Positions 19,400-52,031 of a stretch of 64,000 nucleotides of DNA are shown in pieces (the first letter of the stretch is position 1; every line of letters begins with the position of its first letter). Under the pieces are notes generated by a model. It saw only the letters and a list, made by a program, of their open reading frames with translations, did not search any database and was not told the DNA's origin. The position numbers and the translations under genes were made by a program. Source of the DNA: Gemmataceae bacterium (lineage in GTDB: Bacteria > Planctomycetota > Planctomycetia > Gemmatales > Gemmataceae); NCBI GenBank assembly GCA_019748295.1, contig JAIEPT010000132.1:1-64000 (forward strand). The letters are read 5' to 3'.

Positions 19400-20000
19400 G
19401 ACGAACCTCGATGAACGCGCGTGCGGATATTCGGAAAGCGTATTCTACGAGGTGAGGAATTGAACCACAGAGGCATAGAGAACACAGAGAAAGTCAAGGA
19501 CGAAGCACCCAAGCCCAGGGGCGAGCGTAGCGAGCTCCTGGGTTCCAGACCGAAAACACATTCCCCTTCCGACACTCCGATCCCAGGAGCTCGCTACGCT
19601 CGCCCCTGGGCTTGGGCGTCTTTTTTTATCGGCATCGGCAATGCATCGTCGGTTCGTTCGATGGAGACGCCGGTTTCCGTGGTTTCCGTGACCGCCAGCT
19701 TTTCGACCTTCAAGCCGCGGAGAAACGTGGGGATCACCGTCGTTGAAGGCCGAGGAAAGATGGAGAATCACTCCGGATTCTGCGGCGTTCGCCCAGCTTC
19801 GCATCCATTCGATTTCTTTGACCAAAGTCGCAAAAACGCCCAACTGTTTCGTTTGAACTGCCGATAAAGCGGGTGAGGGAATCTGTGCGGCACGCCCAGG
19901 GAAGCCGTAGTGTGGGTGGACGCACGAACGCGCCCACGGTGTCCTTCGCGTGAACAAGTGAAGCCGTACTGCGAGCCTGCCGCTCGCTGGAGGCGCCGAC
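19400..20000. other. Intergenic region with a palindromic repeat (19508-19616)
   Basis: No credible gene. At 19508-19616 two inverted arms of about 40 bases (CCCAAGCCCAGGGGCGAGCG..., with AGCGAGCTCCTGGG) flank a spacer of about 33 bases. The same element occurs between lipB-like and lipA at 50655-50739. Just upstream, 'AACCACAGAGGCATAGAGAA' at about 19461 resembles low-complexity ACAGAG strings that are scattered in many environmental genomes. Confidence 0.7.
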
Positions 20001-42733: not shown

Positions 42734-45046
42734 TTAGTTGCCGCGCGGCATCGCGGGGCCCGTGCCAGGACCGCCGGCAGGGGCCGCCATGCCGGAGTTT
42801 TTGGCGTCCTGCACCCGTTCCTGCAAGCGTGCGACGCGTTCCTGCCGCTCTTTGCCGGCGGGCAGTTCCGCGTTGCCGTCGATGCGCGAGTTGCGCACGA
42901 TCAGCTTGCCGTTGGGGTTCAGGATCAGCACATCGACCGCGGATTCGTCCTTCACGTAGGGATACCCCGGCAACGTAACGAACCGGTGTTCCTGCTTGCC
43001 GCCGTCGAAATCAACGAGCATGGGCGGCGGGAAGGTGACCTGGAAATCGACGGGAATGCCCGAGCGAGCCAGGTCTTTTTGACTGGCCGGCAGTTTCTTC
43101 AGCTGAGGAGGAGCGGAGTACTTGATCTCGAACGATTGCTTCGCCTTGCTCCATTCGGGCAACTCGACCATGACCGAAAGCCGGCCGATCGGTTCGCCGC
43201 GGCGGACGAGCAGGCGTTCCGCAATCGCCCAATCGCCGATGATGTGGAAGAGGCCCTGCGGATCCGTGAATTGGTCGATCCAGCGGTGGATCTGAAGGGC
43301 AACCGTTTCGCCCTTCGACTGCTCGTAGTTCGAGCCGCCTTGCAGCCTCTGCGTCGGCATCTGATCGACGGCGTAGAAGTAGTGTTCGCCCGGAATCGTG
43401 GCGTCCGGCGTGATCTGCCAATCGGAGGGGGCTAGGTCTTTGATGTCGGCCAGCGCCGCGAAGGCGACATGCTGCTTCTTGCCGTAGTTCGGATTCGAGA
43501 GCCGGACCTGGATGCGGTAGCGATACGTCTTGCCCGGCTGAACGTCCGGATCGAAGAAGCGAACGAGCGCGTCTTGCAGGATGAGCTTGCGCTGTTGGCC
43601 GGCCATGCCGATCCCCGGATTCATGACGCCTGGACCGGGGCCCTCCGCTTCGCCTTTCGGGGCTCTTTCCTCGAAGAGATCCCACGGGGCGAGGATGCCC
43701 TTGCCGGGCTGATTGGCGGCTCCGCCGGGGCCGCCTTCGCCGCCCCCCGGCATTGCCGGCGGCATTTGCATTCCGGGAACGAATCCTGGCGAAAGCTTCT
43801 TGTCGTCCGCTTCCGGAGCGATGCCGAAGGGATCGAAGGGGTAGATGTTTCCTTCGAGCTTGTCCTTCAGCGGCTTCATGTCGCGCGGCAGCTTGTTCCA
43901 TCCCATGTTCGCGAAGGCCAATTCCGGGCCGGCCGCAGGAGCGCCGCCGGGATTCGGATTATTGCCGACGCCGGGAAACTTCACGCCGGGCATGCCGACT
44001 CCCGGCATGCCGACTCCCGGCATCCCAACGCCCGGAGCGGGCATGATTTTTTTGCCAGGCTCGCCCATGGGGCCTCCCGCAAGTTCATCGACGGGCGCCG
44101 GTTCGATCCCCTTGAGCCCCGCCTTGGGATATTTGCCGAACGCCAACTGCGGCAGCGGCGAGACCAGACCCGGATGGACGTACATCGCGTATTCCTGGAT
44201 CGAAGTCGTGTCGTAGATCGTCTCGCGAAGCACTTCCTTGATCGCCTTCGACATCTCGATCTTGTTCTTGACCGGATCGGTGGCGAGGATTCGCGTCCAC
44301 GGCGTCGTCTTGCCGTCCGCCATGACTTCGCAGCGTTCGACGTTGATCCCCTGGAACTTGGGAAGCAGGTCGCGATTCATCGGCGAGAACAGATCGCTCA
44401 GCGACATGTTCAACGACTGAGCGTAGAGCGTGACTTGGTCTTTCAACGGGAAGGTGGCCGAGACGATGTTCATGCGGATCGGCTTGGCGATTACCGCGGG
44501 CTTCACCGAGCCTTTGGCCCCCGCCATGCCCCCGATTCCGGGGCCCATCGGCGGTTGGCCGACCGCTCCGGCTCCTTCCTTCGCCTCGGAGACGATCGTC
44601 AGGCCGTTCTTGGCGGTGTCGATCTCGTAGGCGAAATACAGGCCTCGAACGTAATCGATTTTCATCGCGTCTTCGCCGGCGAGCGCGGGGCGAACCGGCA
44701 GCACCGGCGGATTCATCCGCTTCTTCTTCGGCACGTCGGGCAGATAGGTGAACGGCGTGACCGCGAAAGTGGATAGCCGCATCGGCCAAGGTTCCTTCCC
44801 GCTGGTCACGTCGACTTTGATCGTCAGATCTTCCTCGGACGGCTGAGCCGTTTGCACTTTGCTGCGGATGCCGTTCGCGGTCGATTTGAGCGTCGTGACA
44901 TGGGCGGAGGCGGATTGGCCCATGGCGGACATGGCGCCCAATCCGACGAGCAGCGCCATGATCGCGAGGCAAACGCCCAGGCCGAGCTTTTCCCCTTTGT
45001 CGAAGAGGAACGATTTGACCTTCGAAAGATCGGGCTTCTTAGCCAT
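42734..45046 (-). CDS. Single-pass envelope protein of the PilMN locus, with Gly/Pro-rich repeats
   Basis: A 770-residue protein, third gene of a minus-strand trio with a PilM-PilN fusion. Residues 20-42 form the only membrane helix, preceded by a short Lys-rich cytosolic tail, so most of the protein is periplasmic. A Gly/Met/Pro-rich segment lies near 340-365 (several 'GMPGV' repeats), with further 'GGPGG' low complexity around 430-450. The C-terminal third (about 480-720) contains an ordered beta-rich region ('DVQPGKTYRYRIQVRLSNPNYG'). The topology is like PilO or GspM but the length is much larger. I do not recognise the family. The gap to the middle gene is 42 bases, so co-transcription is likely. 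Confidence 0.65.
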   Translation of the reverse strand: MAKKPDLSKVKSFLFDKGEKLGLGVCLAIMALLVGLGAMSAMGQSASAHVTTLKSTANGIRSKVQTAQPSEEDLTIKVDVTSGKEPWPMRLSTFAVTPFTYLPDVPKKKRMNPPVLPVRPALAGEDAMKIDYVRGLYFAYEIDTAKNGLTIVSEAKEGAGAVGQPPMGPGIGGMAGAKGSVKPAVIAKPIRMNIVSATFPLKDQVTLYAQSLNMSLSDLFSPMNRDLLPKFQGINVERCEVMADGKTTPWTRILATDPVKNKIEMSKAIKEVLRETIYDTTSIQEYAMYVHPGLVSPLPQLAFGKYPKAGLKGIEPAPVDELAGGPMGEPGKKIMPAPGVGMPGVGMPGVGMPGVKFPGVGNNPNPGGAPAAGPELAFANMGWNKLPRDMKPLKDKLEGNIYPFDPFGIAPEADDKKLSPGFVPGMQMPPAMPGGGEGGPGGAANQPGKGILAPWDLFEERAPKGEAEGPGPGVMNPGIGMAGQQRKLILQDALVRFFDPDVQPGKTYRYRIQVRLSNPNYGKKQHVAFAALADIKDLAPSDWQITPDATIPGEHYFYAVDQMPTQRLQGGSNYEQSKGETVALQIHRWIDQFTDPQGLFHIIGDWAIAERLLVRRGEPIGRLSVMVELPEWSKAKQSFEIKYSAPPQLKKLPASQKDLARSGIPVDFQVTFPPPMLVDFDGGKQEHRFVTLPGYPYVKDESAVDVLILNPNGKLIVRNSRIDGNAELPAGKERQERVARLQERVQDAKNSGMAAPAGGPGTGPAMPRGN
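43986..44035. repeat. Tandem 15-bp repeats within the envelope gene
   Basis: Four consecutive units of CATGCCGACTCCCGG and variants encode GMPGV-type pentapeptides on the minus strand. Near-identity of the units suggests recent slippage. Confidence 0.7.
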
Positions 45047-45088
45047 GACACGTCCCTTAAGCGGAAAGGTGAATCTGGTTCGTTTCCC

Positions 45089-47092
45089 TTAGTTCTTCAT
45101 CGGCATGGGCGGCGGGGTGTTCGGAGCCCCCGCGGCAGGCGGACCTCCGGCGGCAGGCGGACCTCCGGCGGCAGGCGGAGCCCCCGCGGCGGGCGTTCCA
45201 GGAACCTCGACCCCCTTCTTGGGATAGCGCTCGTAAATGGTGATGAATCCGTAGATCACCATCTCGAAGTTCGACTCCAATTCGTCCGACCCGCCGGCAT
45301 TGGGATCGTTCGGCTGCCCAGGCTGACCCGGGATCATGGGGCGAGGGCCGATCGGGGGCATCATGGGGATTTCGCCAGGTCCGGCAACCGGGCCCCCCAG
45401 GGGATTAACGCCCCCCTGCTGCACGATGGGCCGCATGCTGCCCGGATAATGGTTCAGCAGCACTTGAGTGGTGAGGAACCGGTACTTCGAATTGTTGAAC
45501 GCCGCCTGCACGCGATCCAGGTGATCCTGATCCACGATCATCGAGACGGCAAGCGGCAGTCGCCGATACTGTTCGTTCACTTCGACATAGCGCTTCGGAT
45601 TGAAACCATTCGGCGTCAGCGCGACGCCTGCCAAGCCGCCGGCTTCGCCGCCGATACCGGGGACGCCCGGACCCATGCCTGGAGGCATTCCGCCAGGAGG
45701 CATTCCGCCCGGGGGCATACCCCCCGGAGCAACCTCTTTATTCGCGGCTGCCGGATCCGGGGGGGCCTCGCGGTACATCTTGAGCGGCGTGCCCGCGTGC
45801 CGATGCCCGAGCGCGTCGGGAACGCCGAATACGACGTTGTCGATGCGTTTCACGGCCGCCGTGTCCCATGTCAGCACCTGCTCGACGGAGTAAATGCCTG
45901 TACGCGGGATTTTCGGCAGATCGATCACGACCGTGCGCTGAACGTTCGGGTTCTTGGTCAGCGGGTCGTTGGGCTCCAATGGTTCTCCGCCGACCAGCAC
46001 CTTCTCGGCGTCGAACGACTTGTGGAATTTGATTTTGAACGTGACGTCGAGCCGCTGGCGTCGGTTTTGCCGGTTCTTGATGGTCACTTCCAGCTTGTCC
46101 GACAGCAGCAGCTTCATGTCGAGTTCGAAGTAAGCATTGGTGAAATGGAAGCCCTTGTTGAGCCCCTCGCCCCCCTTACCTTCGCATTTCCCGACGTAGT
46201 CGTTGGCGAGGCGGACCATGCGATAAACTTCGCGCTGAATCCACAGGTCTTCTTGGGCGAGCCAGGCTTCCTCGGAGATGTCGAAGTCGAGTTTCCATTC
46301 GTCCGGCTTGAACGCGAGGAAGGTCGTCTTCGCGATCGGAAGGTCCCCCTTGTAGGCGGGCGTCCAGCCTTTGAACTGCACGACCCCTTCGCCTGAAGCG
46401 AGAAGCGGCTCGACGCTTTCGATGACGGGGCTCACCTGCTTCAGGTAGGCCGGAGCGTAAGTCGCGCGCTGCTCGGTGTCGGTGAGCTTGTCGTAGAAGA
46501 AGCGGCTGGAATAGTAGGTCACCGCGACCATTTGATTGCGGGGGATCTCGTTGAAGAAGCCGCTGCGCCCCTTGAGATCGATGCGAAACTCGGGCGTGCG
46601 GTAGAACTTCTCGACCTTGTTGTCCTTGCCGCGAACAAGCACCCAATCCTTGTAAAGGTCCGCCACCGTACCATGATAAAGGTTCGGCGTGTTGGCGGGT
46701 CCGTCCTTGTTTTCCCCATCGGCGGGCGCAGCGGGAGCATCGAGTACCGTCATGCTCACGGCGAATTTGCCGTTGCTGAAGTTGTAGATTTCTTCCACAC
46801 GGTCAGGCCATGTGAAAAGCGGCTCTTGACCTTGATAATTCGTCTGCCAGGCGGTGACTTCCGCCTTCTTAAGCTTCTCCGCTTGTTCCTGAAGCTTCAG
46901 GTTCGTTTCGTCGTTGGAGACCAAACCTGGTGCATTCGTTTTCTCGGCCGCCTTGATCTTCTTGAGTTCCGCGCCGATCGCTCCGCTGACGACGGTATAA
47001 AGGACCAGGTAAACACCAAACGTCAAGGCGATGGGGACGATCAGCAGGAACCAAAACTTCTGTTTCTTGATTACGTCTTTATTGAACTTCAT
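45089..47092 (-). CDS. Single-pass envelope protein of the PilMN locus (PilO-like topology)
   Basis: A 667-residue protein directly downstream of the PilM-PilN fusion (82-base gap). A Lys-rich cytosolic N-terminus (MKFNKDVIKKQK) is followed by one membrane helix at about 13-38. A coiled coil comes next (about 40-78, 'KLQEQAEKLKKAE'), and then a large periplasmic domain. This order (short cytosolic tail, one helix, coiled coil, globular periplasmic part) is that of PilO, but PilO is only about 200 residues. The tail has 'PPGGM' repeats near 450 and an alanine/proline/glycine-rich end. Family not recognised; PilO-like function is inferred from topology and context. Confidence 0.65.
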   Translation of the reverse strand: MKFNKDVIKKQKFWFLLIVPIALTFGVYLVLYTVVSGAIGAELKKIKAAEKTNAPGLVSNDETNLKLQEQAEKLKKAEVTAWQTNYQGQEPLFTWPDRVEEIYNFSNGKFAVSMTVLDAPAAPADGENKDGPANTPNLYHGTVADLYKDWVLVRGKDNKVEKFYRTPEFRIDLKGRSGFFNEIPRNQMVAVTYYSSRFFYDKLTDTEQRATYAPAYLKQVSPVIESVEPLLASGEGVVQFKGWTPAYKGDLPIAKTTFLAFKPDEWKLDFDISEEAWLAQEDLWIQREVYRMVRLANDYVGKCEGKGGEGLNKGFHFTNAYFELDMKLLLSDKLEVTIKNRQNRRQRLDVTFKIKFHKSFDAEKVLVGGEPLEPNDPLTKNPNVQRTVVIDLPKIPRTGIYSVEQVLTWDTAAVKRIDNVVFGVPDALGHRHAGTPLKMYREAPPDPAAANKEVAPGGMPPGGMPPGGMPPGMGPGVPGIGGEAGGLAGVALTPNGFNPKRYVEVNEQYRRLPLAVSMIVDQDHLDRVQAAFNNSKYRFLTTQVLLNHYPGSMRPIVQQGGVNPLGGPVAGPGEIPMMPPIGPRPMIPGQPGQPNDPNAGGSDELESNFEMVIYGFITIYERYPKKGVEVPGTPAAGAPPAAGGPPAAGGPPAAGAPNTPPPMPMKN
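45125..45194. repeat. Tandem 18-bp repeats encoding an Ala/Pro/Gly tail
   Basis: About four units of GGCGGCAGGCGGACCTCC and variants at the 3' end of the envelope gene, encoding repeated 'PPAAGG' on the minus strand. Confidence 0.7.
45673..45727. repeat. Tandem 15-bp repeats encoding PPGGM
   Basis: Units of GGAGGCATTCCGCCA and variants within the envelope gene at 45089-47092 encode a Gly-Met-Pro-Pro-Gly run on the minus strand. Confidence 0.65.
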
Positions 47093-47174
47093 GGCAATGA
47101 TCCGAGGGCATTCGCGAGGGATTTCCGGCCGCTAGGTTTGTCGTCAGACCCACATGCGGGTCCTGCGAGGCGAT

Positions 47175-49601
47175 CTACTTTTTCGCCTCTTCCGTCTTCG
47201 CCTCTTCAAGGCCGGGAGCGGGTTCCTTCCAGATGAATAGGAGCACAAACTCCCAGCGCGGCGTCTTGGCGACAGCGCCCGCAACCGGGGCGGCTTCCTT
47301 CTTGCCGGGCTCCTTGGGATCCAACATCGGCGGCGGCATTTCACGGGGCCCAGGCATTACCACGCCCGGACCGCCTCCAAGCCCCTCTTTGCCGCCGGCG
47401 CGAATGGCCGCGCCCGCTCCCTCGCCCAACGGACGCCAACCTGCCCGCGCCGCGGCATTGGGACCGGCAGCGGCCGGCTCCCCGGCAACGCCCGGCACGG
47501 CCGGAGCGGCGCCTGGGGGCATGCCGGGAGCGGCCGCTGGATCTCCAGCCCCGCCTGCTGCGGCCCCGGCGGGCGTCAGCAGCCTCGGCACGTAACTCGT
47601 CGCGATGTGCTGGAACGTTCCCGGAGTCGGATTGGTTACCTTCTCGTTTTTGTAGATGAACAGAAAGCTGATGTTCTTGCGGGCGACTTCGGTCATTTCC
47701 TTCGTCAACTTGCTCCCGACCTTCTCGGGAAACATCAGGTTTTCCTTGAGCGTGTTGTCGATGAACTCTTCGCCATCCTTGTGATAGGTGTAACCACGCA
47801 CCTCCACGACCCAGCACTTCTGCGGGATCTTATCCTTGCCTTCGTCCTTCGTCGCGACGTCCACAACGGTCTGCTTTTCCTGGAAGGTCATCGCACGCAA
47901 TACCGGCGTGTCCTTCTGGATGTTCTTGAAGTAGCTCGGCACATCCTCCGTGTACATCGCCGAGATGCCTTCGACGCTGATCTGAATCAGGTTCTTCTTG
48001 ATGACTTCCTCAGCCTCGGCAACCGCAAGAGGGTCGGCGTTCGGGTCCGGCTTCGCATAGCGCTTCTTCTCGAGCATCATGAATGCCTTGCGAGCATCCG
48101 CCGTGTCGTATTGCTTCTTCACGCGGACATTGCGCTCGGAAAGCTCAGTAAGCCGTTCGCCATTCGGCAACGGCAGAGCCAAGTTGACGTACTCCGTCAT
48201 CAGCTGCCAGTTGAATCGCTCTTCGACTCCGCCCTGCAGCCGGCGGATGACTTCTTCGCTTTTGCGCATCTCATCGAGGATCGCCGTGCGTTTGGCGGCG
48301 AGGCTGTCCGCGGCCGCCTTCTCCGTCTCTATTTCCTTGATCGCCTGCTTGATCGCGGGATTGCTCACGGCGCTATGGGCCACGCTCTGGAAATAGGTGA
48401 GGCAGACAGCCGCCAGCAACAGTGCGGCCGCAGCCATCACCGCCCACGGTTTCTTGCCGCGGACGATCCGTTCCATGCGCACTTCGTAAGGCAGCAGGTT
48501 GGTTTGCAGGCGGGTCTTCTTCAGACCCTGCAAAGCCAGCCCGTAAGCGGCGGCGAAGCTCATCACATTTTCGGCGAACTGCGGGGCCGCCGTCACTTCG
48601 TCCCCCGCGATCCGCTCGAACGACGCGACTTTGCGCACTTCCAGCTGCAGCTTCTCCTGCAAATACTTTTGCAGGCCCGGCAGGCGGAACGCGTTCCCGA
48701 GGCCGACCATGTACTGAATTTCGGCATCGCGGTGGGTGTTGGTGAAATACCCGAGCGAGCGCTGCACTTCGCCGACGAAGTCGTTCAGCACCGTGCGGAG
48801 CGATGCGAGGATTTTCTTGAGGTCGGGCGACTTGGCGGCGTTTCGCTTGAGATGCTCGGCTTTGGCGAAGGTGAGCTTCAGATCCTTCGTGAGAGCGCGA
48901 GTAAAATGGTTGCCGCCGAGCGGAATCGGGCGCTGCCAGATGATTCTGCCGCCGTCGGTGATGACGAGGTTGCTGTTGTCGGTGCCGATATCAAGAGCGA
49001 CGATGCACTGCTTTTCGCTGGTCGTTTTCCCTTCGCCTGCGGCATCCGCATCCTGGCCGAGCAGGTCGAAAGCGACATAGTTGCAAAGGGCGAGAGGCGT
49101 CATCTGCACGATGTGGACTTCGACGTTCACTTCCTTGAACTGCGTGAGCGCCCGAAACACCATGTCCCGCTTGATGGCGAAGAGGCCGATCTCGGTTTCA
49201 AGCGCGAGGCCGTCCGTCACTTCGCCGGAGCCGATCTTCTGAAAGTCCCAGACGACTTCCTCAAGCGGGAAGGGAATCTGTTGCTTCGCCTCGAATTTGA
49301 CGATGTCCGCAATCTTCTTCTCTTCCACCGGCGGCAGCTTCACGAAGCGGGCGAGACCGCTTTGCCCGGGGATGGAGATGACGACCATGTCCCCCTTGAG
49401 AGTGTTGCGCGAGAGGAATTGCTGAAGGGCTTCGCGCGTGAGCTGGTCGGGGTCGGCATCGGGTTGGCTAAGGATCTTGGGATGCTCGATGTAGTCGAAC
49501 GCGGTCGCTTTGATCTCGCCGTCGACGAGTTGGAGTCGGACGGCCTTCAGGGCACACTGGCCCAAATCAATACCCCAGACGCCTGGTTGGGGAGCCGCCA
49601 T
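47175..49601 (-). CDS. pilM: PilM-PilN fusion (type IV pilus/T2SS-like inner-membrane platform)
   Basis: An 808-residue protein. Residues 1-360 are an actin-like PilM ATPase: phosphate-1 'WGIDLGQCALKAVRL' (9-23), 'IPFPLEEVVWDF' (109-120), phosphate-2 'VALDIGTDNSNLV' (201-213) and 'YMVGLGNAFRLPGLQKYL'. At 367-373 it contains TNLLPYE, the short motif by which PilN's N-terminus binds PilM. One membrane helix follows (about 386-404), then a coiled coil (about 410-460) and a periplasmic PilN/GspL-like part. In other bacteria PilM and PilN are separate. The C-terminal 110 residues are Ala/Pro/Gly-rich. GGAG lies 9 bases before the ATG. It is first in a probable three-gene operon with the two single-pass proteins. 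No pilin, PilB or PilQ gene is in the window. Confidence 0.85.
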   Translation of the reverse strand: MAAPQPGVWGIDLGQCALKAVRLQLVDGEIKATAFDYIEHPKILSQPDADPDQLTREALQQFLSRNTLKGDMVVISIPGQSGLARFVKLPPVEEKKIADIVKFEAKQQIPFPLEEVVWDFQKIGSGEVTDGLALETEIGLFAIKRDMVFRALTQFKEVNVEVHIVQMTPLALCNYVAFDLLGQDADAAGEGKTTSEKQCIVALDIGTDNSNLVITDGGRIIWQRPIPLGGNHFTRALTKDLKLTFAKAEHLKRNAAKSPDLKKILASLRTVLNDFVGEVQRSLGYFTNTHRDAEIQYMVGLGNAFRLPGLQKYLQEKLQLEVRKVASFERIAGDEVTAAPQFAENVMSFAAAYGLALQGLKKTRLQTNLLPYEVRMERIVRGKKPWAVMAAAALLLAAVCLTYFQSVAHSAVSNPAIKQAIKEIETEKAAADSLAAKRTAILDEMRKSEEVIRRLQGGVEERFNWQLMTEYVNLALPLPNGERLTELSERNVRVKKQYDTADARKAFMMLEKKRYAKPDPNADPLAVAEAEEVIKKNLIQISVEGISAMYTEDVPSYFKNIQKDTPVLRAMTFQEKQTVVDVATKDEGKDKIPQKCWVVEVRGYTYHKDGEEFIDNTLKENLMFPEKVGSKLTKEMTEVARKNISFLFIYKNEKVTNPTPGTFQHIATSYVPRLLTPAGAAAGGAGDPAAAPGMPPGAAPAVPGVAGEPAAAGPNAAARAGWRPLGEGAGAAIRAGGKEGLGGGPGVVMPGPREMPPPMLDPKEPGKKEAAPVAGAVAKTPRWEFVLLFIWKEPAPGLEEAKTEEAKK

Positions 49602-49912
49602 AACGCTATCTCCGAGTGAGGTGCGAACGAACGGGGCAAACGGACCAAAGATGGGATTCTGCCGCTGTCATCCTCATCAAGGATATCGACGCGGAGCATG
49701 CTTTGTCAACAACGCCCGTGCGCAAAGTCGTCGATATTGCTAGGTTTGCGTCCGCTAAAGGCATGTCTGCCGCTTGCGGCTTAGCGATTTCGCCAAGCCG
49801 CAAGCGGCAGAGAGCGCTCACATCGATCGCACGCCGTTTGAATCCCTTTCCTTGGCTGCTAAACTAGGGGTACGTCAGCCCCTGTCCTAGCGGTTGCCGC
49901 ACGGATGTGCCC
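49602..49912. other. Divergent intergenic region with a palindromic repeat (49769-49808)
   Basis: No gene. At 49769-49808, GCCGCTTGCGGCTT and AAGCCGCAAGCGGC form a perfect 14-base stem around a 12-base loop. This is a short copy of the CCGCTTGCGGCTT family. The region should contain the divergent promoters of the pilM and lipB-like genes, but no clear -35/-10 pair stands out. Confidence 0.65.
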
Positions 49913-50647
49913 ATGCTTGTCGATGAGTTCGAACCCGAAGCCCGCGATGCGGCCCTGCAGGTCTACCTGTTGGGGTCGCTCGATTTCGATGCCGCGCTCC
50001 TCTTGCAGCGCCGTCTGCATTACGACGTTTCGGGCGACCGCAGCCAGGCGGCCCTGATTCTCTGTGAACATTCGCCCATCATTACGGTTGGCAGACAGGG
50101 GAGCCGAACGCATCTGCGTTTCGACGTGGAGGATTATGCCCATCGCGGGCTCCCTTCCCGATGGGTCACTCGCGGCGGCGGATGTTGGCTGCACCTGCCG
50201 GGTCAACTTGCAGTCTATCCGATTTTGCCGTTGGATCGCATGCGTCTGACGATCCCCGAGTATCTGCAGCGATTCGCCGACGTGTTCGTCCGCACGCTCG
50301 ACGATTTCAGCGTCCGCTCCGCGGTCCATGTCGGCGAAGGGGGCGTCTGGGTAGGCCAGCGCCCGATCGCGGCCCTGGGCATCGCCGTGCGGTCGCAGGT
50401 GACGATGCATGGCGCTTGCTTCAATGTGAATCCGGATCTCGTGCCGTTTCGACGAGTGCGCAGCATGCCGAATTCCGAGGATCCCATGTCGTCGCTGGAA
50501 CGCGAACGCCGCGGCCCGATCCGCCCTGCCCTCGTTCGCGAACGGCTCATCGAGCACTTCCAGAACGTATTCGGCTTCCGCGAAAGCGTTGCGTTTTCCG
50601 AACACCCGCTGATACGGGAACAGACGCGGCGACTGGTGCCCGCATAA
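49913..50647 (+). CDS. LipB-family octanoyltransferase homologue lacking the catalytic Lys and Cys
   Basis: A 244-residue protein of the LipB fold; the residue numbers below count from an in-frame GTG at 49907, two codons before the chosen ATG. Family signatures are 'CEHSPIITVGRQGS', 'RGGGCWLHLPGQLAVYPI' and 'MHGACFNVNPDLVPF'. In E. coli LipB the acyl-enzyme Cys169 lies in 'RINPCG' and the essential Lys135 in 'GEKKICSLG'. Here the aligned segments are 'RRVRSMPNS' (Met187 in place of Cys) and 'GQRPIAALG' (Pro153 in place of Lys). Only Cys93 and Cys171 lie near the expected pocket. It normally transfers octanoate from acyl carrier protein to lipoyl domains; this copy is predicted to be inactive by the standard mechanism. 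It is followed by lipA. The start could be the GTG 6 bases upstream. Confidence 0.8.
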   Translation: MLVDEFEPEARDAALQVYLLGSLDFDAALLLQRRLHYDVSGDRSQAALILCEHSPIITVGRQGSRTHLRFDVEDYAHRGLPSRWVTRGGGCWLHLPGQLAVYPILPLDRMRLTIPEYLQRFADVFVRTLDDFSVRSAVHVGEGGVWVGQRPIAALGIAVRSQVTMHGACFNVNPDLVPFRRVRSMPNSEDPMSSLERERRGPIRPALVRERLIEHFQNVFGFRESVAFSEHPLIREQTRRLVPA

Positions 50648-50654
50648 GAAGGTT

Positions 50655-50739
50655 CCCAAGCCCAGGGGCGAGCGCAGCGAGCTCCTGGGTTCCGTTCGCA
50701 TGAACCCAGGAGTTCGCTGCGCTCGCCCCTGGGCTTGGG
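50655..50739. repeat. Palindromic repeat in the lipB-lipA spacer
   Basis: Inverted arms of about 36 bases (CCCAAGCCCAGGGGCGAGCG and GAGCTCCTGGGTTC) surround a spacer of about 10 bases. Another copy lies at 19508-19616. The element ends 2 bases before the lipA ribosome-binding site (GGAG at 50742-50745), so the hairpin may influence lipA translation or uncouple it from lipB-like transcription. Confidence 0.8.
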
Positions 50740-50753
50740 CTTGGAGAGAAAAC

Positions 50754-51650
50754 ATGTCGATGCTTTCGTTGCCGCTGGCGCCTTCCGAGCCCGTGCAAGA
50801 GCCGAAGCGTCGTTTGCCCTCGTGGCTGAAACGGCCGCTGCCGGTGGGCAACGAGAACTTCTTCACGCAAAATCTGCTGAGCGAGTTGAAGCTCGAAACC
50901 GTCTGCGAAAACGCCCGCTGCCCCAATCGCCCCGAATGCTACTCGCGACGCACCGCCACCTTCATGATCATGGGGAACGTCTGCACCCGCCCCTGCGGCT
51001 TCTGCAGCGTGCCTCGCGGCGAGCCCGAAGCGCTCGAAACGGATGAACCCGAGCGCGTGGCCGAGGCTTCTTATCGCCTGGGACTCAAGCATGTCGTCAT
51101 CACATCGGTTACTCGCGATGACCTGCCGGACGGCGGGGCCGAACATTTTCGGCGCTGCGTGGTTGCCGTGCGAGAGCGAACCGGTGCGGTCGTCGAGGTG
51201 CTCACGCCCGATTTCATGGGGGACAAGGCCGCCATCGATTGCGTGCTGTCGTCTCGCCCGGAAGTCTTCAATCACAACACCGAGACCGTGCCTCGCTTCT
51301 ACAAGAAAGTCCGTGGCCGAGCCGACTATCAGCGAACGCTCGATCTGCTCGCCTACGTGAAAAAGCAATCGCCCGAAACGACGACGAAGACGGGCTTGAT
51401 GCTTGGCCTGGGCGAGACGCGCGAAGAATTGCTTGAAGTGCTCGCCGACATTCGCCGCACGAATTGCGACATGCTCACGCTGGGCCAGTACCTGACGCCG
51501 ACCCTGAAGCATGTGCCGGTTGTCCGTTATCTGCCGCCAGCCGAGTTCGACGAACTGAAGGTCCTCGCCCAAAAGCTCGGCTTTAAGCACGTTTCCAGCG
51601 GCCCGTTCGTCCGATCCAGCTATCACGCGGACGAACAAATCCATGCGTAG
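50754..51650 (+). CDS. lipA: Lipoyl synthase
   Basis: A 298-residue radical-SAM enzyme that inserts two sulfurs at C6 and C8 of protein-bound octanoyl groups. The auxiliary-cluster cysteines are Cys51, Cys56 and Cys62 ('CENARCPNRPEC'). The radical-SAM cysteines are Cys77, Cys81 and Cys84 ('CTRPCGFC'). The C-terminal 'GPFVRSSYHA' carries the conserved RSSY serine that ligates the auxiliary cluster. Length is close to the usual 300-320. GGAG lies 8 bases before the ATG; the upstream in-frame extension is repeat sequence. The next gene overlaps its 3' end by 8 bases. All expected catalytic residues are present, unlike its two neighbours. Confidence 0.95.
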   Translation: MSMLSLPLAPSEPVQEPKRRLPSWLKRPLPVGNENFFTQNLLSELKLETVCENARCPNRPECYSRRTATFMIMGNVCTRPCGFCSVPRGEPEALETDEPERVAEASYRLGLKHVVITSVTRDDLPDGGAEHFRRCVVAVRERTGAVVEVLTPDFMGDKAAIDCVLSSRPEVFNHNTETVPRFYKKVRGRADYQRTLDLLAYVKKQSPETTTKTGLMLGLGETREELLEVLADIRRTNCDMLTLGQYLTPTLKHVPVVRYLPPAEFDELKVLAQKLGFKHVSSGPFVRSSYHADEQIHA

Positions 51651-51879
51651 GCCCGTGACGATGCCCGACTTCGGCGTGGACGGAGCCAAGGTCAGCGTCT
51701 GGTTCGTCCGCCTCGGCGAGCGCCTTCGAGAAGGGGAGCGGCTGGTCGAAATCCTCGCAGGGGCCGCCGCCATCGACGTACCCGCTCCCGCCGACGGCAT
51801 CCTGGTCGAGCGACTTGTTGAGATCGACCATCCGGTGACGCCAGGCCAGACGTTGGGTTTCGTCGATGATGCGCTGTAA
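51643..51879 (+). CDS. Stand-alone lipoyl/biotinyl-fold domain without the modifiable lysine
   Basis: A 78-residue protein matching an E2-type lipoyl domain end to end ('TMPDFGVDGAKVSVWFVRLG', 'GERLVEI', 'VPAPADGILVERLVE', 'PVTPGQTLGFVDD'). In lipoyl domains the tight turn reads Glu-Thr-Asp-Lys-Ala. Here the turn reads Leu-Ala-Gly-Ala41-Ala, so Ala41 occupies the Lys position and the domain cannot be lipoylated there. No other Lys lies near the turn; the only Lys is Lys16. Its start overlaps lipA by 8 bases, so the two are translationally coupled. No larger dehydrogenase subunit is attached. A role as a docking or decoy partner for LipA or the LipB-like protein is possible but speculative. 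Confidence 0.75.
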   Translation: MRRPVTMPDFGVDGAKVSVWFVRLGERLREGERLVEILAGAAAIDVPAPADGILVERLVEIDHPVTPGQTLGFVDDAL

Positions 51880-51888
51880 GTGAGTTGC

Positions 51889-52031
51889 GGCGAGCAGCCG
51901 CTGTTAGGCGGCTGGTATAGCATCACGCACAAGTCTCGTCATCCACAGACGGTTTCATGTTTAGAAACCGTCTGAGTATCACGAGACTTGTGCGCGATGC
52001 TATACCAGCCGCCTAACAGCGGCTGCTCGCC
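51889..52031. repeat. 143-bp near-perfect palindrome between convergent genes
   Basis: The arms extend from GGCGAGCAGCCGCTGTTAGG at the left to its complement at the right. There is one mismatch in the first roughly 50 bases, a short mismatched bubble, then a further 9-base paired stem (CAGACGGTTT and AAACCGTCTG) around a small loop. It fills the whole gap between the lipoyl-domain gene and the DUF885 gene. It is long for a terminator and resembles a MITE-like element, but no target duplication or second copy is visible in this window. Confidence 0.85.

Follow-up and report, generated by a model that had tools for sequence, protein, structure and literature searches.

In the octanoyltransferase LipB, the catalytic pair consists of Cys169 and Lys135 in E. 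coli and of Cys176 and Lys142 in M. tuberculosis, and access to the active site of the M. tuberculosis enzyme was proposed to be controlled by the RGG loop (PMC9307952). A survey of lipoate assembly found that LipB and LipM occur together only very rarely. According to the same survey, many bacteria that possess LipM and LipA lack the amidotransferase LipL, for which either a broader specificity of LipM or an unknown amidotransferase was suggested (PMC10332631).

In the limited literature that we searched, we found no description of an inactive LipB, or clade of such proteins, or of a lysine-less stand-alone lipoyl domain in planctomycetes. Here we analysed a LipB-family gene and its neighbours in a 64,000-nucleotide stretch of DNA (referred to as the window) from the metagenome-assembled genome of a Gemmataceae bacterium, with distribution, trees and counts covering the Planctomycetota.

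Results

The gene of interest (49907-50647, plus strand) is an intact open reading frame with a GTG start codon and without frameshift, encoding 246 amino acids. Its product scored 100.1 bits with the TIGR00214 model (cut-off 83.55) and thus belongs to the LipB sequence family. A sequence search of the PDB returned the LipBs of T. thermophilus (2qhs, E 2e-29) and M. tuberculosis (1w66, E 3e-17), and the predicted model (pLDDT 90.5) adopts the LipB fold, with Foldseek TM scores of 0.93 to 2qhs and 0.86 to 1w66. When aligned to these two LipBs, however, the protein has Pro153 in place of the catalytic lysine and Met187 in place of the catalytic cysteine, while Trp94 and Leu95 stand where the RGGxxT[FYW]H motif has its Thr and its aromatic residue. 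All four replacements had been reported in a preliminary description of this DNA, and the alignments confirm them. For assigning these residues, the LipBs of T. thermophilus and M. tuberculosis carry as much weight as the E. coli row of the alignment. An alignment artefact as the source of the missing residues was rejected, as two PDB alignments, the multiple alignment and the fold concur. Hereafter, we refer to a LipB-fold protein without the catalytic lysine and cysteine as LipB*. Three features were overlooked in the preliminary description: LipB* of the window contains no lysine at all, a lysine-less lipoyl domain is encoded two genes downstream, and LipB* forms a class-wide clade.

Profile searches detected a relative in 115 of the 149 genomes of the class, which we take to be Planctomycetia because the named close relatives of the window are Gemmataceae and Gemmatales. 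Among 79 aligned inactive homologues (one per genome, window protein included), neither catalytic residue was found (0/79 each); the lysine column mostly holds Gln, Arg, Leu or Pro and the cysteine column Asp, Gly, Pro or Asn. This comparison with planctomycete LipBs, proposed in the preliminary description, again placed no Cys or Lys in the canonical positions of LipB*. Both residues were kept in all 30 LipBs sampled from other planctomycete classes and in all 32 planctomycete LipBs outside the LipB* clade. Since they are absent from 79 of 79 proteins in the class and present in 32 of 32 outside the clade, their absence goes beyond chance.

When the two catalytic columns were omitted from the tree calculation, one branch divided the 79 inactive from 35 canonical LipBs (SH-aLRT 99), and branching inside the LipB* clade mostly tracked family codes. 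Two Planctomycetia genomes, G001 and G039, carry a canonical LipB in place of LipB*. These two proteins branch outside the LipB* clade, one of them together with T. thermophilus LipB, and were probably acquired by horizontal transfer. On this phylogeny, LipB* lost its nucleophile, its catalytic lysine and its Thr-aromatic pair once, in the ancestor of the clade. Pairwise dN/dS of LipB* lay at 0.07-0.18; lipA, compared in the same genome pairs, gave 0.006-0.12. That is, LipB* is under purifying selection, which together with the intact reading frame bears out the earlier impression that the gene is not obviously decayed. As a side observation, G001 belongs to the same family as genomes with LipB*, and its canonical LipB and its LipA share one open frame of 544 amino acids (C1:4942264-4943742), an apparent LipB-LipA fusion.

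Several pocket features are conserved in the LipB* clade. The Arg and the second Gly (Gly73) of the RGG loop are present in 79/79 sequences, Gly151 in 79/79, His78 in 77/79 and Asn155 in 75/79, and PGQ is kept as well; the Thr76 and Tyr77 positions are now mostly hydrophobic. The preliminary description had suggested Cys93 or Cys171 as substitute nucleophile. This suggestion was not supported, with Cys93 found in 32 and Cys171 in 5 of the 79 homologues and the window protein being lysine-free. The sole conserved cysteine of LipB*, which was also considered as a putative LipL-type amidotransferase, is Cys53 (73/79, 92%). This residue does not align with the nucleophile position of LipB, and six homologues with intact genes have Ala, Tyr or Gly instead. 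All three cysteines were rejected as alternative nucleophiles because their conservation is too low. Even the best-conserved lysine column of the family reaches only 19%.

Downstream of LipB* lies lipA (50754-51650, plus strand; start codon by inspection), whose product scored 365 bits with the lipoyl synthase model TIGR00510. It retains both cluster motifs (CX4CX5C and CX3CX2C) and RSSY, in agreement with the apparently intact lipA of the preliminary description. LipA is present in 146 of the 149 Planctomycetia genomes, and in almost every genome of the class LipB* adjoins lipA even though it has diverged strongly. The two genes of the window are separated by an inverted repeat with 38-nt arms that are 97% complementary (50655-50739). 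Its core recurs at 19512-19612, and a similar sequence lies 5' of an LplA-like gene at another locus; this dispersed palindrome is probably unrelated to function. Upstream of LipB*, the minus strand (42734-49601) carries large genes, including one for an apparent PilM-like ATPase (47175-49601), which suggests an operon for assembling a type IV pilus or a secretion-type apparatus.

The lipA end is overlapped by a gene (51643-51879, plus strand) for a stand-alone lipoyl-like domain of 78 amino acids (PF00364, 32.0 bits). Its AF2 model (pLDDT 96.7) is a lipoyl barrel that matched E2 lipoyl domains in Foldseek. The hairpin lysine that serves as acceptor in lipoylated carriers is an Ala in this protein. 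It was missing from every usable homologue linked to LipB* and from 36/36 further loci of a genome-wide search, most of them unlinked to LipB* or lipA; the site is occupied by Gly, Pro, Ser, Ala, Glu or Asp. The remaining lipoyl domains of the window genome (E2 proteins and GcvH) kept their lysine, and at two loci of other classes with canonical LipB the lipA-adjacent domain retains the DKA lysine. At one locus, an intact LipB* gene is followed by lipA and a lipoyl-like gene that are broken over several frames, reflecting sequencing error or a pseudogene. Directly 3' of the lipoyl-like gene of the window, there is a 68-nt inverted repeat (51889-52031; 94%, 7-nt loop) that occurs once in the window. 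The neighbours of unlinked lipoyl-like genes were uninformative as a functional clue: only tmk-like and holB-like genes recurred, at eight loci of one family.

Genome-wide searches revealed the lipoyl-like protein in about 107 of the 113 genomes with LipB* and in 1 of the 36 without it (short-ORF lipoyl-like protein with E about 1e-14 or better, tallied by hand; counts vary with thresholds and assembly completeness). Fisher's test gave p of about 1e-26, a value that overstates independence because the genomes are related. In the single exception without LipB* (G296), a full match to lipA is absent too, and the contig in question is probably missing. Conversely, no lipoyl-like partner could be recognised in six of the genomes with LipB*. 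In four families, some members lack both proteins and others have both, so joint loss probably occurred several times. None of the 20 lipA loci analysed from genomes without LipB* had a lysine-less domain near lipA. Since the genes for LipB* and the lipoyl-like protein are often unlinked, their co-retention indicates a shared function beyond a shared location. Both proteins are also poor in lysine: mean K/(K+R) at the same loci was 0.10 for LipB* and 0.13 for the lipoyl-like protein, versus 0.26 for LipA (paired test of LipB* against LipA, p 3e-13), and canonical LipB averages 0.29. One reading of this lysine poverty is that it avoids self-acylation by a reactive octanoyl donor.

The window genome was searched for a second canonical LipB, and none was found. 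It does encode two more members of the LplA/LipB family, a LipM-type protein (P0003) and an LplA-like protein (P0004), as revealed by the search for lplA, lipM and lipL that the preliminary description had envisaged. The P0003 gene (contig C385) lies directly 3' of gcvPB, and genes of this type adjoin gcvPB in 19 of the 38 loci with short flanks. Cys136 and Lys151 are invariant in the 14 aligned and in all intact members. The lysine aligns with that of archaeal LplA and the cysteine has no counterpart there, which agrees with the published origin of LipM (PMC10332631). No curated LipM model matched P0003, which gave only weak matches below cut-off with LplA models. A LipM-type protein is present in 145 of the 149 genomes of the class, and two of the four genomes without it are G001 and G039 with their canonical LipB. 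Given the conserved residues and the gene linkage, we regard P0003 as a putative LipM, and octanoyl transfer is probably carried out by this protein. P0004 possesses the lysine and has no accessory domain; it gives strong matches in most class genomes but not in every one. It was rejected as a replacement for LipB*, since no clear anticorrelation between lack of P0004 and occurrence of LipB* was visible by eye. In outline, the preliminary proposal of a non-catalytic protein accompanied by another octanoyltransferase elsewhere in the genome is supported by P0003 and P0004, while its further idea of a LipA partner or octanoyl-domain chaperone is kept here as a conjecture.

Discussion

LipB* resembles the LipBs of E. 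coli, M. tuberculosis and T. thermophilus in its fold, its RGG...PGQ loop, its HG..LNVN strand and its adjacency to lipA, but it differs from them by lacking the catalytic Cys and Lys and the Thr-aromatic pair and, in the window protein, any lysine. Judged by its sequence, LipB* is very probably a pseudoenzyme of the LipB family, a LipB by descent in which two defining residues are missing, and the label 'octanoyltransferase' seems unsuitable. The setting recalls Bacillus, where the octanoyltransferase LipM is combined with LipL, an amidotransferase from GcvH to E2: LipB*, too, is accompanied by a LipM-type protein that has both the Cys and the Lys, and for E2s an accessory step beyond LipM may be required. 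LipL is, however, a catalytic Cys enzyme, whereas LipB* belongs to LipB by sequence. The lipoyl-like protein shares the barrel fold and the hairpin with E2 lipoyl domains, GcvH and the stand-alone lipoate-binding LbpA, yet the hairpin lysine is replaced in all its members. A small partner alongside an LplA/LipB-fold protein is also seen in the bipartite LplA/LplB ligase, but there LplA is catalytically active and LplB is not a lipoyl-like domain.

How might the two proteins act? We consider it probable that they work together and likely, too, that they do so in lipoylation; a complex resembling that of LipB and its substrate is a reasonable expectation. LipB* would hold the lipoyl-like protein in the way that LipB binds its lipoyl domain; with acyl transfer impossible, this contact would be permanent. 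Octanoyl transfer itself would be carried out by the LipM-type protein beside gcvPB, and the pair would then dock an octanoylated carrier (GcvH or an E2 domain) for LipA, which is encoded alongside. Such an adaptor function is a tentative proposal: the link to LipA builds on gene neighbourhood, which was possibly inherited from an ancestral lipB-lipA arrangement, and several families carry the lipoyl-like gene at another place in the genome. Where the pair is absent, lipA and LipM are retained, so its function must be accessory rather than strictly required. Overall, we lean slightly towards a pair of pseudoenzyme and pseudo-substrate that assists lipoylation by LipM and LipA, in a role whose details are putative. 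A bolder version, in which the two have co-evolved into a stable, lysine-poor platform that hands octanoylated carriers non-covalently from LipM on to LipA (or from GcvH on to the E2s) and so replaces the amidotransferase that is absent from many bacteria with LipM and LipA, seems improbable to us.

Other explanations have to be weighed against this accessory role. The two proteins could instead form a sensor or regulator, whose pocket binds octanoyl-ACP, free octanoate or an octanoylated domain and tunes LipM and LipA to supply without delivering any substrate. A pocket loop kept without catalysis and the dispensability of the pair in some lineages agree with this idea, and a dead enzyme joined to a substrate mimic would fit inhibition or sensing, but no regulatory domain was seen and nothing points specifically to regulation, so we regard it as unlikely. 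We are also rather sceptical that the pair has left lipoate metabolism for an unrelated purpose, with the lipA neighbourhood as an ancestral relic. In its favour, the lipoyl-like gene is often distant from lipA (near tmk and holB in one family), genomes devoid of the pair still have lipA and LipM, and lipoylation by itself does not account for the scarcity of lysine in both proteins. Against it, LipB* has stayed beside lipA in almost every genome of the class although it has diverged widely, and the loop of its acyl pocket is conserved.

Two further explanations would leave LipB* either active or without any function. LipB* is very probably not an octanoyltransferase, as far as its residues allow a judgement. 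Continued octanoyl transfer through Cys53, Cys93 or Cys171 without a lysine could draw on the conservation of Cys53 in 73/79 homologues, but this residue is replaced in the six intact others, Cys93 (32/79) and Cys171 (5/79) are far less conserved, no lysine is conserved, the Thr-aromatic pair is lost too and the partner domain has no acceptor; we hold this mechanism to be highly improbable. Gene decay would account for the lost catalytic residues and for the absence of the gene from some lineages, but it is extremely unlikely for an intact reading frame with dN/dS far below 1, a single ancient origin and class-wide retention.

The preferred accessory role has consequences for annotation and for lipoate assembly. 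The NCBI LipB model names the window protein 'lipoyl(octanoyl) transferase LipB', and the annotation of Planctomycetia thus probably describes an enzyme that is unable to carry out this reaction. An inactive LipB* accounts for one apparent co-occurrence of LipB and LipM, and it is a concrete candidate for the missing step. The function of the pair is possibly a categorically new one. If our reading is true, an enzyme and its substrate-like partner would have lost their catalytic and acceptor residues in parallel across a whole class, giving rise to an unusual structural or regulatory pair.
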